Assembly: GCF_001640365.1 (NCBI RefSeq)
Contig: NZ_LWMI01000010.1
Coordinates: 1-64,000 of the forward strand
Direction: 5' to 3'
Length of the DNA stretch: 64,000 nucleotides
Source: Candidatus Arsenophonus triatominarum
Lineage (GTDB): Bacteria; Pseudomonadota; Gammaproteobacteria; Enterobacterales; Enterobacteriaceae
This document shows, piece after piece, positions 13,493 through 54,529 of this stretch. Each line of letters opens with the position of its first letter. Position 1 is the stretch's first letter. A model generated the notes under the pieces. That model was not told the DNA's origin. It did not search any database and worked only from the letters and a program-made list of their open reading frames with translations. The translations under genes were made by a program, and so were the position numbers.

Positions 13493-13684
13493 CACGAGTT
13501 TCGCACCAATAAAAAAACGCTCTATTTTTAAGTTTAATTCAGCATAATATATAAATAGACAAAATCTTATAAATTAAAAGCAACTTATTGTAATTTAAAC
13601 AAATTTATACGTTCTAGTAACTTGCAAATTAACCATTGCTTTTAAGCCATTTCTGGAATTTTATATGCCTGTGCGAAACTCGTG
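13493..13684 (+). repeat. IS4-type MITE, copy M4
   Basis: 192 bp in the + orientation. The left flank is IS4-type 3' coding sequence (ttatcaacaaaa) and the right flank is IS4-type 5' coding sequence, with no matching 5-bp repeat. It forms one arm of an inverted MITE pair with M5. Confidence 0.93.
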
Positions 13685-13849
13685 GTTATCAGAAGTAAGC
13701 CCATCGCCTTTATCTCATGACACTATTAGTCGATGGCTAAAAAGTAGATGTTTTCGACCTAAAGACCTATGGCGATTAGTTCAACCTTCTATAGACAAAA
13801 AAAGCCCTTGCATACTAATTGCCGATGATACATTGATTGCCAAAACACG
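13685..13849 (+). mobile_element. IS4-type transposase 5' fragment
   Basis: 165 bp matching codons LSEVSPSPLSHDTISRWLK... to DDTLIAKT of the transposase. It ends where an inverted IS4-type terminus begins. Read from the ATG inside M4 it makes an open frame beginning MPVRNSWLSEV. A decayed fragment. Confidence 0.85.
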
Positions 13850-13936
13850 CACGAGTTTCGCACAAACCTAATTTGGGTATACTAATAAACCCCTGATCTG
13901 CTCAGCAATAGCATTTTTGATTACATACCAATTTTG
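13850..13936 (-). mobile_element. IS4-type element, right-end fragment (inverted)
   Basis: It reads cacgagtttcgcacaaacct, then the reverse of the element's last 87 bp (atcaaaaatgctattgctgagc), and stops at ccaatttt just before MITE M5. It complements the end missing from the copy at 12514-13492. Confidence 0.8.
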
Positions 13937-14128
13937 CACGAGTTTCGCACAGGCATATAAAATTCCAGAAATGGCTTAAAAGCAATGGTTAATTTGCAAG
14001 TTACTAGAACGTATAAATTTGTTTAAATTACAATAAGTTGCTTTTAATTTATAAGATTTTGTCTATTTATATATTATGCTGAATTAAACTTAAAAATAGA
14101 GCGTTTTTTTATTGGTGCGAAACTCGTG
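13937..14128 (-). repeat. IS4-type MITE, copy M5
   Basis: 192 bp in the opposite orientation to M4, 252 bp away. Its right flank is the ychH remnant. There is no matching target duplication, as expected if the segment between M4 and M5 has been inverted. Confidence 0.93.
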
Positions 14129-33271: not shown

Positions 33272-34096
33272 TATTTAGCATAAAAGCGCAATTTTTCATT
33301 TTTTATATCTTATACCCGTTTGACAACATAGCTTCGAGTGGAATGTCGTAATACAAATTCATTTGGCTGACGTTGAAGCCATAATATGTGAGAAAATATC
33401 ATGATAGCTGATGCCGTTAAGCCAATAATAAAACCGATCCAAAAACCTTTTGGTCCCAGATGCGGCACGATAAAGTCAGTTAAACCAAGTAGATAACCTG
33501 TTGGTAGGCCGAGCAGCCAGTAAGCAATGAAAGTGATAAAGAAAATTGAATGGGTATCTTTATAACCGCGTAATATACCGGCGCCAATGACTTGAATAGC
33601 ATCGGAAATCTGATAGATAGCAGCGAATAACATCAATTGTGATGCCAATAGGACGACTTCCGGATTGCGATTATACATTAATGCGATCTGCTCTCTAAGT
33701 GACGCTGTCACAATTTCGGTGCAGCAAGCTACCGTTAAATCTACTATAATGCTGGCATAGGCGGATATTTTTGCCTTTTCTGTTGAAGTACTGCCTAAAT
33801 TATAACCGACCCGGATCGTTGCTGCAATACCAAGAGAAATAGGAAACATAAACATTAACGAACTAAAATTTAACGCTACCTGGTGTCCTGCGACAGCGAT
33901 AATGCCTAATGGCGCGATCAGTAAGGCGACAATAGCAAACAGAGTCACTTCGAAGAAATAGGCTAGACCAATAGGTAAACCTAACGCGAACAAGCGTCTT
34001 AATAAAGAGAAGTCAGGTAATACAAACTGTTTATTAGCACGGATGTCACGTTGTGAAGGAGTATGGCGTATATACCAGCGCATCAAAAGAAACATA

Positions 34097-34122
34097 CACG
34101 AGTTTCGCACAGGCATATAAAA
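34097..34122 (-). repeat. IS4-type MITE, 26-bp terminal fragment
   Basis: cacgagtttcgcacaggcat plus six bases, then the IS481-like copy C begins. On the minus strand its ATGCCTGTGCGAAAC opens the 268-codon frame running into mdtK. Confidence 0.9.
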
Positions 34123-35306
34123 TGTATTAGTCTTAACTTAATCTGATAATTCTGATTTAAAAAAGAGAGTTACCGGTTTTAATTAACATCATTAGATAAT
34201 AAAATAAAAGGTAATTCTATGTATCAAACAAATAATCCTATCATCAAAGGTTACTTAACCTCGCTGAAGAACTTCATAACGTCTCAAAAGCCTGTAAGAT
34301 TATGGGGGTATCCCGAGATACGTTTTATCGCTACCAGGAACTTGTTAACGATGGTGGGATAGACGCTTTAATTAATCAAAATCGACGGGTGCCTAACGTA
34401 AAAAATAGAGTAGATGAACAGATTGAAAGCGCTGTAGTTGAGTATGCGATTGAATACCCTGCACACGGTCAACACCGCAGTAGTAATGAACTAAGAAAAA
34501 AAGGCATTTTTGTTTCGGGGAGTGGCGTTCGCTCTATTTGGCTGCGCCATAATCTCGAAAATTTTACAAAACGCCTAAAAGCGCTTGAAGATAAAATCGC
34601 AACAGAAGGAATTATCCTGTCAGAATCACAAATCAGTGCTCTAGAAAAAAAAGCACAGGATGATGAGGCCAATGGTGAGATTGAAACAGCGCATCCAGGT
34701 TATCTGGGTTCACAAGATACTTTTTATGTCGGTCATTTAAAAGGCGTTGGTCGTGTTTATCAACAAACTTATATTGATACTTACAGTAAAGTCGTTCATT
34801 GTAAGCTTTACACAACAAAAAGCGCGATAACGGCGGCAGATTTATTAAATGACAGGGTTCTCCCTTTTTATTCCCGGCATGGGTTACCGGTGTTACGTAT
34901 ACTGACGGACAGAGGCAGTGAGTATTGTGGTAAAGTTGAACATCACGATTATCAACTTTATCTCGCTATCAATGATATTGATCATACAAAAACTAAAGCT
35001 CGTTCACCTCAAACTAATGGGATTTGTGAACGCTTTCATAAAACTGTATTACAAGAGTTCTATCAGGTGGCTTTTCGTAAGAAAATCTATAGGGCTTTAG
35101 ATGAATTACAAGCTGATTTAGATAAATGGTTAGCGGAATATAATAACCAACGCACTCATCAAGGAAAAATGTGTTGCGGTCGAACTCCTATGGCAACTTT
35201 ACACGATGGAAAACAACTTTGGAGAGAGAAAGATTTAAATCAAATTTAACCTGACAGGTACTGTATAAATAACCGGTAACTGTCAGATCAAGTCTGAGCT
35301 ACTACA
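34123..35306 (+). mobile_element. IS481-like element, copy C (1184 bp)
   Basis: Both ends present (tgtattagtcttaactt and gtctgagctactaca). A 10-bp deletion near 34246 (catcaaaggttac) explains the shorter length and breaks the transposase start. It sits between a MITE fragment and an IS4-type fragment inside mdtK. Confidence 0.93.
34218..35249 (+). pseudogene. IS481-like transposase, copy C, 5' deletion
   Basis: The main frame from 34302 (MGVSRDTFYRYQELVNDG...) keeps the helix-turn-helix and the full rve core, 315 residues, identical to copy E except for a few residues. The true start at 34218 is out of frame after the 10-bp loss. Internal initiation at 34302 could still make most of the protein. 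Confidence 0.8.
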
Positions 35307-39447: not shown

Positions 39448-40649
39448 CACGAGTTTCGCACAAACCTAATTTGGGTATACTAATAATCCCCTGATCTGCT
39501 CAGCAATAGCATTTTTGATTACATGCCAATTTTGTTGATAAAGAGTTATTTTTTCAGATATACGGCGTTTATGTTGTTCAAACCACGCAGAAATTGCGAG
39601 AAAAATATGATTTCTTTGCACCCGACTCGTGCGAGCCTGACAGCGTTCAATACCACAATTTTTTTAACTTCTAGATGATAAACTTCAACAGACCAACGGG
39701 CATCCATGATAGATTTGACGTATTGACGGGTGGGATTGTCTTTGTTTGTTACTAAGTAATCAATACGGCCGTTTTTGGCTGTAAATTTGAAAACAGTCAC
39801 TCAACCGTAGCGTAAGTGTATTGGAGTTCCTTCTTCTGAGATGTCTAACTTGTTCAGTTGTTTGTTATGGTTAACAATCCTGTTTTTCCTCCGCGTGGTT
39901 ACCTAGACCCAACCATGAGAGCGAATTGATTTCAGATTATCCAGGCTAGAATACCAGGCATCCATCACTACCGATCCCTCTTTTTTTAGCAAGAGCAAGC
40001 ATTTCGGAAAAGTGCGTGTTTTTTGTTTTTCCATCAGAATCTTTATCATAAATACGATAATCAATAGGAATTGATTCAACAGTTGTTAGATTATGCCAAC
40101 GTAAATTAACTAAACCTATGCCAGCAATAACATCATGTTCATTACCTGAATATTGATAATGAACCATCTCTATTTTTTTACTACGTGTTTTGGTAATCAA
40201 TGTATCATCGGCAATTAGTACGCAAGGGCTTTTTTTGTCTATAGAAGGTTGAACTAATCGCCATAGGTCTTTAGGTCGAAAACATCTACTTTTTAGCCAT
40301 CGACTAATACACGAGTTTCGCACTGACAAATAAACAAGTTATTTTTAAGTTCAATTCAACATAATATATAATTCGCAAAAATTGTTAATTCAAATATAAC
40401 TTATTGAAATAAATATATATTTTATATTATTTAGTATCTTGCGGATAAAACATTATTTTAGCTATTTTTAGAACTTTATATGTCTGTGCGAAACTCGTGT
40501 AATAGTGTCATGAGATAAAGGCGATGGGCTTACTTCTGATAACGCCAAACCAGAGTATCAATGCATGGATAACCGGACAAAATATGAACACCCTAATTTT
40601 TTCTTGTTTTGAACTTTATACTTTTTTTTTGGAGATTGCGAAACTCGTG
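39448..40649 (-). mobile_element. IS4-type element, both ends present, broken, with MITE M9 inside
   Basis: Right terminus cacgagtttcgcacaaacc at 39448, left terminus ggagattgcgaaactcgtg at 40649. The transposase is broken: a stop or shift near 39800 (actcaaccgtagcg), a deletion around 39970 and others. No target duplication is visible, since the two IS982 flanks are not continuous. Confidence 0.85.
40310..40499 (+). repeat. IS4-type MITE, divergent copy M9
   Basis: 190 bp with perfect 14-bp ends but a strongly diverged core (for example tgacaaataaacaagttatt). TAATA is repeated on both sides, inside the IS4-type transposase. An older or distinct MITE subfamily. Confidence 0.85.
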
Positions 40650-40771
40650 GTGAATTTATTAGCCGGGCGGGTTGCATATTGTTTAATTCCATCTAAACCA
40701 AAGATACCTGTGGCAGGAACATCTCTTCAAGTATAATTGATAATGCTTATCCCGAACTCAGGTTAATATTA

Positions 40772-40962
40772 CACGAGTTTCGCACAGGCATATAAAATTC
40801 CAGAAATGGCTTAAAAGCAATGGTTAATTTGCAAGTCACTAAAACGTATAAATTTGTTTAAATTACAATAAGTTGCTTTTAATTTATAAGATTTTATCTA
40901 TTTATATATTATGCTGAATTAAACTTAAAAATAGAGCGTTTTTTATTGGTGCGAAACTCGTG
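40772..40962 (-). repeat. IS4-type MITE, copy M10
   Basis: 191 bp flanked by TATTA on both sides. Left neighbour is the IS982 terminus, right is punR. Confidence 0.95.
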
Positions 40963-41248
40963 TATTAGATTTTTATCGCCATTTTTCTGATATCGAACTT
41001 TTTATTCAGCAGGAAGTTTATAATGGTGTATGGGAGGCATTAGTCGATGGCCGAGTGGATATAGCAATTGGTGCAACCCGTGCGTCACCGATTGGCGATA
41101 GATATAGTTTTCGTGATATGGGATTTATGCCTTGGTCATGTGTTGTCAGTATCAATCATCCTTTAGCACAAATGAGCGGGCTAATTAGCGATCAACAATT
41201 ACGTCTCTACCCCAGTTTATGTTTAGAAGATACCTCTCGCTACTTACC

Positions 41249-41439
41249 CACGAGTTTCGCACCAATAAAAAACGCTCTATTTTTAAGTTTAATTCAGCAT
41301 AATATATAAATAGACAAAATCTTATAAATTAAAAGCAACTTATTGTAATTTAAACAAATTTATACGTTTTAGTGACTTGCAAATTAACCATTGCTTTTAA
41401 GCCATTTCTGGAATTTTATATGCCTGTGCGAAACTCGTG
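41249..41439 (+). repeat. IS4-type MITE, copy M11
   Basis: 191 bp flanked by TTACC on both sides, inside punR. Excision of the element and one repeat restores the frame. Confidence 0.95.
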
Positions 41440-44175: not shown

Positions 44176-44269
44176 CACGAGTTTCGCACAGGCATATAAA
44201 ATTCCAGAAATGGCTTAAAAGCAATGGTTAATTTGCAAGTTACTAAAACGTATAAATTTGTTTAAGTTA

Positions 44270-45150
44270 TAGCTAGGCGACTTAATTTTGATTACAGCAT
44301 ATGTATTAAAAACAGGTCATCGATAGTGCATCCTGTTTCCATCTTTTTACGTTTAGCTTGAGACCATTTATGTTCTATAGGATTTAAATCTGGTGAATAC
44401 ACAGGCAAATATTCTATCTGGTGTCCTGCGTTTATAATTGCCTGTTCAATATTCTTACCTTTGTGAAAGCTAGCGTTGTCCATAAAAATAACAGAATTTT
44501 CAGGAAGTTCTGGGAGCAATATTTTTGTGATCCAAACATAAAAAACATCACGGTTAATATTGCAATCAAATAATCCGATAGCAAAAAGGGTTGTTCCCAA
44601 TAAAGCGCCAATAACATTTGTTCTTCCCTTAGCACCCCAGTTTTTCAGGCCAAAACAACGGTGACCTTTTGGGGAATAGCCGTGAGTTCGTGGAGTGTCA
44701 TGTGAAAAACCACTTTCATCAATAAAAACAACAGATTTATCTTTTTTTTCATACTGTTGTCTTTTTTGCTGATGTGCCAGCCTGTCGCTTTCGTTGGTTT
44801 TTGGATGGAATAGAGTTTTTTTTATAGGTTAATCCCAGCTTTTTAAGGGATTGCCAAATAGTCTTTTTACAAACACCGAATCGCTCTGCCCGTTCCTTTT
44901 GGTAAGCATCTGGATACTGTTCCACATCTTTTGCTAAAGCATTTTTATCGAGCTTCCTCTTACGTGGCGTTGAATTTTTTGGCTCTGGTCGTTTAAGCCA
45001 ACGTACTAAAGACGCTTTTCCAATACGGAATTGTTTCGCAGTTTCTCGAATTGTTAAACCTTCGGCTTTCCTTACAGATATTACTTTACGTCGAAAATCA
45101 ATTGTATAACTCATAACACACCTTGTAATCAAAATTAAGTCGCCTAGCTA
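44270..45150 (-). mobile_element. IS630-like element, copy 6 (881 bp)
   Basis: TA on both sides (44268-44269 and 45151-45152). The right TA is also the first two bases of the TACAATA repeat of the neighbouring IS982-type MITE, so IS630 arrived second. Confidence 0.95.
44292..45114 (-). CDS. IS630-like transposase, two frames
   Basis: Same layout as the other full copies, with the shared A8 junction. Confidence 0.85.
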
Positions 45151-45157
45151 TACAATA

Positions 45158-45400
45158 ATCTGAGTTCGGGATAAGCGATAGTTGTGAGAAAATAAAAATA
45201 GCCGATTTATCAAAAGATATTTTAAAATCAAGAAGATAAAAAAGCAGGAAAATTCTTAGTGATAGGAGGTTAAAAAAGAAGCTATTTTTCTCTACTAAAA
45301 TCATGAAAAAAACCAAAATTAATACTGTTTTATGTAATTATTTTAAATTAACTATTTGAATATGTGATAAAAAATTAGGATCCTTATCCCGAACTCAGGT
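45158..45400 (+). repeat. IS982-type MITE (243 bp)
   Basis: Inverted ends atctgagttcgggataag and cttatcccgaactcaggt are those of the IS982-like element, with 7-bp TACAATA repeats outside. The right interior shares attcaaatagtt with the IS982 5' end. No transposase. Inserted in MITE M12. Confidence 0.8.
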
Positions 45401-45637
45401 TACAATAAGTTGCTTTTAATTTATAAGATTTTGTCTATTTATATATTATGCTGAATTAAACTTAAAAATAGAGCGTTTTTTTATTGGTGCGAAACTCGTG
45501 GTATGATTTATGTACTGCGATAGTTTCATTATTAGTGATCGTATCTTTTGTTTCTTTTATTTTATGAGCATCATATTGGCTTAACTGTCTGCTTTTTATC
45601 GCTACAACATTTTGGCTTAACCCGCATCATGGACAGC

Positions 45638-50576: not shown

Positions 50577-51770
50577 TGTATTAGTCTTAACTTAATCCGA
50601 CAATTCTGATTTAAAAAAGAGCGTTACCGGTTTTAATTAACATCATTAGATAATTAAATAAAAGGTAATTCTATGTATCAAACAAATAATCCTATCATCA
50701 AACATAAAGTCGGGTTACTTAACCTCGCTGAAGAGCTTAATAACGTCTCAAAAGCCTGTAAGATTATGGGGGTATCCCGAGATACGTTTTATCGCTACCA
50801 GGAACTTGTTAACGATGGTGGGATAGACGCTTTAATTAATCAAAATCGACGGGTGCCTAACGTAAAAAATAGAGTAGATGAACAGATTGAAAGCGCTGTA
50901 GTCGAGTATGCGATTGAATACCCTGCACACGGTCAACACCGCAGTAGTAATGAACTAAGAAAAAAAGGCATTTTTGTTTCGGGGAGTGGCGTTCGCTCTA
51001 TTTGGCTGCGCCATAATCTCGAAAATTTTACAAAACGCCTAAAAGCGCTTGAAGATAAAATCGCAACAGAAGGAATTATCCTGTCAGAATCACAAATCAG
51101 TGCTCTAGAAAAGAAAGCGCAAGATGATGAAGCCTGTGGTGAGATTGAAACAGCGCATCCAGGTTATCTGGGTTCACAAGATACTTTTTATGTCGGTCAT
51201 TTAAAAGGCGTTGGTCGTGTTTATCAACAAACTTACATTGATACTTACAGTAAAGTCGTTCATTGTAAGCTTTACACAACAAAAAGCGCGATAACGGCGG
51301 CAGATTTATTAAATGACAAGGTTCTCCCTTTTTATTCCCAGCATGGGTTACCGGTGTTACGTATACTGACGGACAGAGGCAGTGAGTATTGTGGTAAAGT
51401 TGAACATCACGATTATCAACTTTATCTCGCTATCAATGATATTGATCATACAAAAACTAAAGCTCGTTCACCTCAAACTAATGGGATTTGTGAACGCTTT
51501 CATAAAACTGTATTACAAGAGTTCTATCAGGTGGCTTTTCGTAAGAAAATCTATAGGGCTTTAAATGAATTACAAGCTGATTTAGATAAATGGTTAGCGG
51601 AATATAATAACCAACGCACTCATCAAGGAAAAATGTGTTGCGGTCGAACTCCTATGGCAACTTTACACGATGGAAAACAACTTTGGAGAGAGAAAGATTT
51701 AAATCAAATTTAACCTGACAGGTACTGTATAAATAACCGGTAACTGTCAGATCAAGTCTGAGCTACTACA
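50577..51770 (+). mobile_element. IS481-like element, copy E, intact (1194 bp)
   Basis: Ends tgtattagtcttaacttaat and atcaagtctgagctactaca form imperfect inverted repeats. It has an uninterrupted transposase. It truncates the 3' end of yecN. Confidence 0.95.
50673..51713 (+). CDS. IS481-family transposase, intact
   Basis: 346 residues. N-terminal helix-turn-helix (LAEELNNVSKACKIMGVSRDTFYRYQE), a second winged segment (HGQHRSSNELRKKGIFVSGSGVRSIWLRH), then an rve integrase core: YIDTYSKVVHCKLY (first D), ILTDRGSEYCG (second D), ARSPQTNGICERFHKTVLQEFY (E). The only full-length copy in this window, and the likely source for copies A-D and F in trans. Confidence 0.93.
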   Translation: MYQTNNPIIKHKVGLLNLAEELNNVSKACKIMGVSRDTFYRYQELVNDGGIDALINQNRRVPNVKNRVDEQIESAVVEYAIEYPAHGQHRSSNELRKKGIFVSGSGVRSIWLRHNLENFTKRLKALEDKIATEGIILSESQISALEKKAQDDEACGEIETAHPGYLGSQDTFYVGHLKGVGRVYQQTYIDTYSKVVHCKLYTTKSAITAADLLNDKVLPFYSQHGLPVLRILTDRGSEYCGKVEHHDYQLYLAINDIDHTKTKARSPQTNGICERFHKTVLQEFYQVAFRKKIYRALNELQADLDKWLAEYNNQRTHQGKMCCGRTPMATLHDGKQLWREKDLNQI

Positions 51771-52313
51771 AATAATAAATGTTAACCAGGATCATTAAAA
51801 TCATAGAACTATAAGTCGTTATTTGGCCAAAATGACGCCAAGTTCGTTCTCTATGTTTTAGGCCAAAGTAATGAAAAATTCTGGCGATGATAAAAATTAA
51901 CCCACAAAGATGAATAGCCCAAACGGGTGCACCATTCATCGCCATCATCAATAATAACAGCATAGAGATAGGAATATACTCAATCGCATTACTCTGAACG
52001 CGTAATGCTGTTTGTAATTCACAAAAACCATCATCACCGTAAGTAACTTGATACTGAGTTCTGAGTTTAATGACTTCCAAAGATAACTTAAACAATATTA
52101 AAGCACTAAATACAATGTACCACGAGTTTCGCACCAATAAAAAAACGCTCTATTTTTAAGTTTAATTCAGCATAATATATAAATAGACAAAATCTTATAA
52201 ATAATTAAACAAATTTATACGTTTTAGTAACTTGCAAATTAACCATTGCTTTTAAGCCATTTCTGGAATTTTATATGCCTGTGCGAAACTCGTGTGTACA
52301 GAGAACTAACCAT
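51771..52313 (-). pseudogene. yecN: YecN (MAPEG-family membrane protein), interrupted by MITE and cut by IS481
   Basis: Small inner-membrane protein of the MAPEG family. Joining across MITE M13 (52121-52294, TGTAC repeat) gives MVSSLYIVFSALILFKLSLEV, YGDDGFCELQTALRVQSNAIEYIPIS and ARIFHYFGLKHRERTW, the MAPEG pattern, and this is very close to E. coli YecN. The last 10 or so residues are replaced by the IS481 end, which supplies a TAG stop. An open frame still runs from a GTG in the MITE (MVRNSWYIVF...), so a near-complete protein could be made. Its place beside cmoA and aspS matches E. coli. Confidence 0.88.
52121..52294 (+). repeat. IS4-type MITE, copy M13 (174-bp form)
   Basis: TGTAC repeat on both sides. 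It lacks about 18 bp of the core (cttataaataattaaacaaa), the same deletion as M14. Confidence 0.95.
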
Positions 52314-52461
52314 TTTTTCCCAAATTTTATTAGGCAAAACAGTGAAATAATGATACATCTCAAAACTTCAACAGTTACCATAAATATAGTATTTAAATCA
52401 ATAAAAAGCTTTCAGATTGCGAATACGTTAAAAGTTATCTAGCCAATATGATAAGGCGTAC

Positions 52462-52494
52462 TTATTTTCCCAGTAGAAATTTCTGTATAATAGC
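52462..52494 (+). promoter_or_regulatory. Predicted aspS promoter, abutting MITE M14
   Basis: A consensus -10 TATAAT lies at 52486-52491, with TTTTCC about 17 bp upstream as a weak -35. A start site 6-8 bases later would fall on the first bases of M14. Prediction only. Confidence 0.45.
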
Positions 52495-52668
52495 CACGAG
52501 TTTCGCACAGGCATATAAAATTCCAGAAATGGCTTAAAAGCAATGGTTAATTTGCAAGTTACTAAAACGTATAAATTTGTTTAATTATTTATAAGATTTT
52601 GTCTATTTATATATTATGCTGAATTAAACTTAAAAATAGAGCGTTTTTTTATTGGTGCGAAACTCGTG
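52495..52668 (-). repeat. IS4-type MITE, copy M14 (174-bp form), in the aspS leader
   Basis: ATAGC repeat on both sides. Same internal deletion as M13 but inverted relative to it, 200 bp apart. It lies between the predicted aspS -10 and the aspS start (52766). Confidence 0.95.
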
Positions 52669-52765
52669 ATAGCGATATTTTTTGATTATGTTTAAATTAA
52701 TAGCACTAAAACGGCTAATGCAAGCGACTCTGCAAGTTGAGTATTTATGAGTAAAAGGATATTGT

Positions 52766-54529
52766 ATGCGGACAAATTATTGCGGGCAATTAGGTGTTGC
52801 TCACGTCGGACAAAAAGTGACTCTCTGTGGCTGGGTTAACCGCCAGCGTAATTTAGGTAAATTAATTTTTGTCGATATGAGAGATCGCGAAGGTTTAGTT
52901 CAAGTTGTTTTTGTGCAGGAAAATCATGCCGAACTTTTTACCCAAGCGTCACAGTTACGCAACGAATTTTGTATCCAGATCACAGGTATGGTACGAGAAC
53001 GTGAACAAATCAATAAAGAGATACCGACCGGTGAGATTGAAATTGTTGCACAAGCATTGACGATTATTAATCGTTCTGAACCATTACCGATAGATAGCAA
53101 TCAACAAAATTCCGAGGAAATAAGATTAAAATATCGTTATCTTGATTTAAGGCGGCCGGAAATGGCAACGCGCTTAAGAGAGCGAGCCAAAATTATTAGT
53201 TTTGTGCGTCGTTTTATGGATGCAGAAGGTTTTGTTGATATTGAAACGCCCGTTTTGACCAAAGCAACACCAGAAGGTGCGCGTGATTATCTTGTTCCAA
53301 GCCGCGTTCATAAAGGTGAGTTTTATGCTCTGCCGCAATCACCACAACTTTTTAAACAATTATTGATGATGTCTGGCTTTGAGCGCTATTATCAGATAGT
53401 AAAATGTTTTCGTGATGAAGATTTACGTGCTGATCGCCAGCCTGAATTTACTCAGATCGACGTAGAAACCTCTTTTATGACTGCAGAGCAAGTTCGTGAA
53501 GTGATGGAGCGTTTGATCTGTCAATTGTGGCAGGAAAATAAAGGTATTGAGTTAGGCACTTTTCCGGTAATGACTTTTGCTGAGGCCATGCAACGTTATG
53601 GTTCAGATAAACCAGACTTACGGAATCCTTTAGAATTGGTTGATATTGCTGATTTGGTCAATGCCGTTGAATTTAAAGTTTTTGCTGAAGCTGCCAATGA
53701 TCCAAAAGGCCGTGTGGCTACACTTTGTGTTCCAGGCGGGGCCACATTAACGCGTAAACAACTTGATGGTTATACTGAATTTGTTGCTATTTACGGCGCC
53801 AAAGGATTAGCTTGGATGAAGGTTAATTCACTGACTGAAGGTCAGGCAGATATTCAAAGCCCGATAGCTAAGTTTTTACCACCATCGGTGATTGATAATT
53901 TGTTAGCACGTACCCAAGCTAAAGCGGGTGATATTTTGTTATTTGGCGCTGGTAAACAAAATGTTATCAATGATGCAATGGGAGCGTTACGGTTGAAAGT
54001 AGGACGTGATTTAGCAATCACACAAAATAATAGCTGGAAACCGTTGTGGATTATTGATTTTCCAATGTTTGAAGAAGATGAAAATGGTGAGCTTAATGCT
54101 ATGCATCATCCTTTTACTGCACCGAAAGATTTTACCCCGGAGCAACTACAAACCAATCCTTTGGCGGCCGTGGCTAATGCCTATGATATGGTCATTAATG
54201 GTTATGAAGTTGGTGGCGGCTCAGTGCGTATCCACCATAATAAGATGCAACAAGCTGTTTTTGAAATTCTTAATATTAGCCAATCAGATCAGCAAGATAA
54301 ATTTGGCTTCTTGCTTGAGGCATTACAATATGGAACACCGCCACATGCCGGTATAGCATTTGGTTTAGATAGGCTTGTTATGTTATTAACGGGAACAGAA
54401 AATATTCGCGATGTGATTGCGTTTCCAAAAACAACCGCAGCCGCTTGTTTGATGACCGATGCACCCAGTGTGGCTAATCCGGCTGCATTAGCGGAATTGG
54501 CGATAACTGTTGCTCCAAAAACTAAATAG
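52766..54529 (+). CDS. aspS: Aspartyl-tRNA synthetase
   Basis: Class II synthetase. 587 residues (E. coli 590). N-terminal OB-fold anticodon domain ([33 protein letters not shown]), motif 1 around [25 protein letters not shown], motif 2 [22 protein letters not shown], the bacterial GAD insertion domain, and motif 3 [15 protein letters not shown] near the C-terminus. First gene of an apparent aspS-nudB-yebC operon (5-bp gap to nudB). A 174-bp MITE sits in its upstream region. Confidence 0.98.

Follow-up and report, generated by a model that had tools for sequence, protein, structure and literature searches.

A MITE in the discriminator of the putative ancestral aspS promoter of Candidatus Arsenophonus triatominarum

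Organization of the aspS upstream region

The window analyzed here is a stretch of 64,000 nucleotides from contig NZ_LWMI01000010.1 of the Candidatus Arsenophonus triatominarum assembly GCF_001640365.1, which comprises 3,858,720 bases in 94 contigs. Genome sizes of 3.86 Mb (PMC6167482) and 3.9 Mb (PMC12090721) are given for this insect symbiont in the available excerpts of two papers. In the window, the essential gene aspS is divergent from a MAPEG-family gene that we take to be yecN, and a 174-bp MITE, named M14, lies between a TATAAT hexamer and the intact aspS. The features of the region are as follows:

51766 to 52137, - strand: remainder of yecN, MAPEG family (PF01124, E 9.5e-21), with an open frame that begins at a TTG or GTG of the M13 end
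52121 to 52294, - strand: M13, a further MITE that is an inverted, identical copy of M14 and has a TGTAC duplication of its own, in yecN after the sixth codon
52462 to 52467, + strand: candidate -35 TTATTT, spacer 18, poor (2/6 consensus matches)
52486 to 52491, + strand: TATAAT, assigned as the -10 hexamer of the ancestral aspS promoter from the congener alignment and the TATAAT counts upstream of aspS
52490 to 52494, + strand: left target-site duplication ATAGC, overlapping the -10 and present as a single copy at the empty site of relatives
52495 to 52668, + strand: M14, 174-bp MITE in the aspS promoter discriminator (perfect 14-bp ends, duplication, empty site)
52498 to 52500, + strand: predicted transcription start in the left terminal repeat, placed from the -10 position
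52669 to 52673, + strand: right target-site duplication ATAGC, read from the sequence
52674 to 52765, + strand: rest of the native aspS leader, with AAGGA before the start codon, from alignment to relatives
52766 to 54529, + strand: aspS, aspartate--tRNA ligase, 587 aa, intact (profile match NF001750, E 1.7e-264)

The TATAAT hexamer, the ATAGC repeats around M14 and the intact aspS had been named in the original prediction, and all of them were found exactly where it had placed them. The ends of M14, CACGAGTTTCGCAC and GTGCGAAACTCGTG, are inverted and complementary at 14 of 14 bp, and the ATAGC copies on its two flanks form a 5-bp target-site duplication, the left copy of which shares its first two bases with the end of TATAAT. 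This hexamer was unique on the + strand from 52302 to aspS in a sequence scan. The gap between it and M14 is 3 bp (AGC), so that the insertion point itself lies within the discriminator, upstream of the predicted start. By the insertion, the six bases 3' of the -10 were changed from AGCGAT, as in the empty site, to AGCCAC. The interior of M14 contains no ORF of 60 aa or more, and 174 bp are too short for a transposase. Terminal inverted repeats, a target-site duplication, a high copy number and an autonomous partner with the same ends, together with the absence of a transposase gene, identify M14 as a MITE.

The aspS product matches aspartate--tRNA ligase models over almost the whole length of the models, and it shares 97% identity with its counterpart in the Arsenophonus endosymbiont of Aleurodicus floccissimus. 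Three AspS matches were obtained in the genome, and among those listed one is full-length (100%) and one is partial (37% identity). The dN/dS values of 0.05-0.32 against six relatives, which cover mostly the time before the insertion, indicate that aspS is under purifying constraint relative to these sequences.

Empty site in relatives and the ancestral aspS promoter

The terminal repeat of M14 was present in none of the eight congeneric aspS loci that were fetched. Six of the eight could be aligned through the promoter, and all six show the empty site, without an insert and with ATAGC in single copy. The exact empty-site string TATAATAGCGATATTT occurs in four of the eight loci; the site of L035 (TATAATAGCAATATTT) is one base off this string and that of L037 (TAAAATAGCAACATTT) is three bases off, and the loci L038 and L039, from congeners with reduced genomes of 0.8-0.9 Mb, were unalignable upstream of aspS. 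TATAAT was found at the same position in five of the six alignable congeners, with TAAAAT in the sixth (L037).

The comparison was extended to the first 51 named aspS loci of a genome scan, from Enterobacterales (L098-L148, including one Arsenophonus, which is also L032). TATAAT within 200 nt upstream of aspS was found in 41 of them, whereas 200 composition shuffles gave 6.4 on average and at most 12 (6.6 and 16 in a repeat run). A strict context definition (TATAAT at 81-154 nt from the start codon, closely preceded by a TT-containing motif and followed at a short distance by five T) was satisfied by 34, against a shuffle mean of 0.03 and a maximum of 1; since the aspS loci are mutually related, the shuffle control overstates their independence and the contrast is not a probability. 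Seven of the 51 loci have TATAAT outside the strict definition, for example L106, where the context is different, and L122, where the usual context lies at 190 nt. No TATAAT was found within 200 nt of aspS in ten loci (L111, L113, L114, L120, L121, L135, L138, L139, L145 and L146), mainly from Serratia and Edwardsiella. When all 80 aspS loci returned were counted, the extra ones being mainly from Vibrionales and Pseudoalteromonas, TATAAT within 200 nt was present in 65 and absent from 15, and the strict definition was satisfied by 44.

Directly 3' of the -10, a mean of 4.4 of six bases are G or C in the 33 non-Arsenophonus loci of the first set that satisfy the strict definition. This combination of a strong -10 and a GC-rich discriminator is reminiscent of promoters under stringent control. 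The -35 is poor: besides TTATTT, the best of five spacings gives TTTTCC (spacer 15) with 3/6 matches. From this sequence comparison, the TATAAT at 52486-52491 is identified as the ancestral aspS -10. The original proposal, that this -10 is used and that the MITE becomes a 5' leader, thus gains strong comparative support from the conservation of the empty site, the -10 and its context, and its transcription start stands as a prediction. Nothing useful on the aspS start site was found in the open-licence literature.

MITE family, its probable partner IS and the transposon burst

M14 belongs to an abundant family. The window contains 41 occurrences of the 14-mer end with up to 2 mismatches, where shuffles give 0.22. 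In the genome, at least 273 perfect-ended copies of 170-200 bp were counted, against 0 for a reversed-pattern control; the pattern used was two perfect ends 142-172 bp apart. A non-random sample of 69 distinct perfect-ended copies was drawn from the window and from loci returned by searches (best M14 matches, first pattern matches by contig order, and copies near transposase loci); copies in which an end was mismatched or an additional terminal repeat lay in the interior, and those less than 25 bp from a locus end, were left out. An exact 5-bp duplication flanks 40 of the 69, and 59 measure 191-192 bp. A preference of the MITE for promoters was considered and was not supported in this sample. 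M14 alone among the 69 copies has a TATAAT that is directed into the element and lies no more than 15 bp from an end; in either orientation and within 25 bp, TATAAT was found at five copies. The flanks are 30% GC, and the target duplications are simply AT-rich.

M14 is a short form with an 18-bp deletion common to M13 and unlike the deletions in three other short copies (L017, L028 and L029). As all 174 bp of M13 and M14 are identical and the deletion is the same, a recent local hop of either copy, or of an unseen common parent, is probable.

Paired ends, with up to 2 mismatches allowed, delimit 1061-1068 bp at seven of the 12 transposase loci examined, and four of these seven have exact 5-bp duplications. 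The transposase family is IS701-type (NCBIfam NF049921), and an IS701-type IS of about 1061 bp with the same ends is the probable mobilizer of M14. This IS resembles the MITE in its 5-bp duplications and its 14-bp ends, of which one carries a single mismatch in L088; it differs in being about 1061 bp long and coding, and when one IS (L088) was compared with one full-length MITE, its interior was not convincingly similar beyond the ends. The IS701-type transposase has 158 matches in the genome, most of those listed being partial or with stops. A large transposon burst has taken place in this genome.

Related copies were found on plasmids of A. apicola and A. nasoniae (five records, 81-95% identity over 49-100% of M14). 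M14 matches were obtained in five of the 38 relatives searched: G005 has two nearly full-length copies at 82%, G001 has a match of 68 bp, and the matches in G002, G021 and G024 are short and weak. No description of the M14 family in Arsenophonus was recognized in the open-licence literature.

Several other arrangements of these ends were observed. Three elements (C1:23603-23791, C5:156131-156320 and C6:115788-115977) have the same 14-bp ends and a diverged interior, and apparently represent a second MITE subfamily. At 44176-45500 the same terminal repeats, spanning 1325 bp, enclose two fragments of IS630-like transposases, and no 5-bp duplication flanks them. Two or three MITE copies are clustered in about 1 kb at 40310-41439 and at 13493-14128, which suggests local hopping. 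The ORF at 33310-34116 (- strand) has its predicted first residues, MPVRNS, encoded by a 14-bp transposon end (34097-34110) and adjacent bases, so ends of this family can give a neighboring frame a start codon.

M13 and the divergent yecN-aspS region

M13, flanked by its own 5-bp duplication, splits yecN after the sixth codon. From the native start, translation would run from MVSSLY into the MITE, and this frame ends after 24 residues; past M13, the yecN frame is open from the in-frame TTG or GTG in the MITE end. The protein start is accordingly MVSSLYIVFSALI (MVSSLYIVF) in L032-L035 and (L)VRNSWYIVFSALI (VRNSWYIVF) in the window. At the other end, yecN of the window is 10 C-terminal residues shorter than in L033 and L034, and the copy of L032 is itself cut short. 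The transposase gene at 50673-51713, which adjoins yecN, matches an IS481 model and is nearly alike by eye to the one at 34302-35249.

The whole 200-bp divergent promoter region of yecN and aspS lies between M13 and M14, and the assembly shows it in its ancestral orientation. As the two copies are identical and inverted, recombination between them would flip the segment and swap the promoter facing aspS. Such an inversion is possible and is unseen in the assembly, and we consider it highly improbable that the segment works as an invertible promoter cassette before aspS.

Predicted transcription start and leader of aspS

The explanation that we favor, and consider likely from the sequence comparisons, is that aspS is still driven by its ancestral promoter and that its mRNA begins in M14 with a leader of about 268 nt. 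M14, as a non-autonomous transposon, would have inserted in the native aspS discriminator 3 bp downstream of the -10, and RNA polymerase would keep using the ancestral -35/-10 region. With the start placed at the usual 7-9 nt after the -10, at about 52498-52500, the bases from about -3 on, including the start site, would now come from the left terminal repeat of M14, and the leader would have grown from about 89 nt to its present length.

Since a start about 7 nt after the -10 leaves the first 3 nt of the left end outside the RNA, the terminal pairs would be 11 and not 14. The predicted fold likewise gave 14/14 terminal pairs for the whole element and 11 when the RNA begins at 52498; the earlier statement that the 14-bp ends can pair therefore holds for the complete element, and in the leader the M14 ends are expected to close a structure with about 11 pairs. 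The folding z score of M14 RNA against shuffles was -2.75 on the aspS strand and -3.91 on the opposite strand. Leader trimming by RNase III is possible, as is an altered regulation of the promoter through the changed discriminator (AGCGAT to AGCCAC).

The Shine-Dalgarno sequence is mostly paired in the prediction both with and without the MITE, the unpaired probabilities of its two G being 0.17 and 0.05 with M14 and 0.23 and 0.11 without it. Masking of the ribosome-binding site by M14 was rejected on account of this small change in predicted accessibility. Because the ribosome-binding site and the predicted local folding are nearly unchanged, aspS is expected to remain expressed. Two further roles of M14 were also rejected: a terminator, as the scan of 52000-52800 found no terminator-like site, and a known structured RNA element, as Rfam gave 0 matches at E up to 1 for 52100-52800. 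A T run inside M14 could lower read-through.

It is also conceivable, and compatible with continued use of the ancestral promoter, that the insertion is damaging and leaves aspS only weakly expressed, as a further step of decay in a symbiont genome under relaxed selection. The state of the genome, with at least 273 MITE copies and 158 transposase matches (mostly partial or with stops among those listed), and of the adjoining yecN, which is interrupted and without the 10 C-terminal residues present in L033 and L034, would agree with such decay. However, the -10, the leader and the ribosome-binding site have been retained along with an intact aspS, and we regard this outcome as unlikely.

The original prediction had offered as its alternative that the MITE supplies a new promoter, and an outward promoter of M14 might indeed drive aspS as in some Correia elements. 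The interior of M14 is AT-rich and includes a promoter-like site with 9/12 matches (TTTATA-16/18-TATATT/TATTAT at 52588-52617), and sigma-70-like promoters have been reported in several bacterial MITEs (excerpts of PMC10969869). However, six promoter-like sites were found in the 801 bases scanned (52000-52800) against 4.6 (sd 2.4) in shuffles, which is no excess; with a site count not above the shuffles, the idea was not supported and was dropped as the favorite. Furthermore, the ancestral -10 is untouched by M14, so no replacement promoter is needed. A MITE-borne promoter is thus decidedly unlikely.

Still less probable is a main aspS start downstream of M14, at 52669-52765, which would make the insertion irrelevant to transcription and which the original prediction had named as the finding that would speak against it. 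Much of this segment is retained in L032-L036, with small gaps in L033 and L036, but no + strand promoter-like site was found in it. The same scan also misses the native promoter with its poor -35 and is therefore weak, so the case rests on the conservation of TATAAT and its context upstream of M14. Finally, an assembly artefact caused by repeats is hardly credible even in a draft of 94 contigs with hundreds of near-identical repeats, as a separate matching 5-bp duplication flanks each of M13 and M14, the sequence on both sides is collinear with relatives, and the 18-bp deletion common to the two is absent from the three other short copies compared.

Chance, significance and comparison with known systems

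With 273 copies in 3.86 Mb and an assumed 2000 promoters, about 1.4 chance hits in some 10-bp discriminator are expected, and about 0.18 for an assumed 250 essential genes. The event is thus unsurprising at about 1.4 expected insertions, and chance alone can explain it. Its value lies elsewhere: closely related strains share the essential gene and its ancestral promoter and differ in whether a MITE is present in the discriminator, a natural experiment in which the effect of a start moved into a transposon end is directly measurable. It also suggests that a transposon burst in a symbiont can reshape the leader of an essential gene while the gene is unbroken. The case of M14 and aspS was not found in print in the open-licence literature.

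In Neisseria, a Correia/NEMIS element lies directly downstream of the mtrCDE promoter, and RNase III cleavage at the ends has been reported (excerpts of PMC10969869). As far as these excerpts describe it, the arrangement is like that at aspS: a MITE just past a host promoter, contained in the transcript (predicted here), with terminal repeats able to pair. M14 differs in being another element in another genus, with an IS701-type end and before an essential synthetase gene. Moreover, it lies in the discriminator, so that the start is predicted inside the terminal repeat. The 155-bp form of Correia has an IHF site; with WATCAANNNNTTR, which we take as the IHF consensus, no match was found on either strand of 52101-52770, and a Correia-like IHF site in the M14 region was discarded.

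ERIC elements are co-transcribed with neighboring genes in Yersinia and are thought to affect mRNA stability (excerpts of PMC2229807). Like them, M14 is an enterobacterial miniature repeat within a transcript, as predicted here; ERIC differs in being a 127-bp element whose effect, in the excerpted text, is on upstream transcripts and not on a promoter discriminator. MITEs just downstream of promoters are already known, and the aspS case, judged from the sequence, differs in the element, in the essential nature of the gene and in the insertion within the discriminator.
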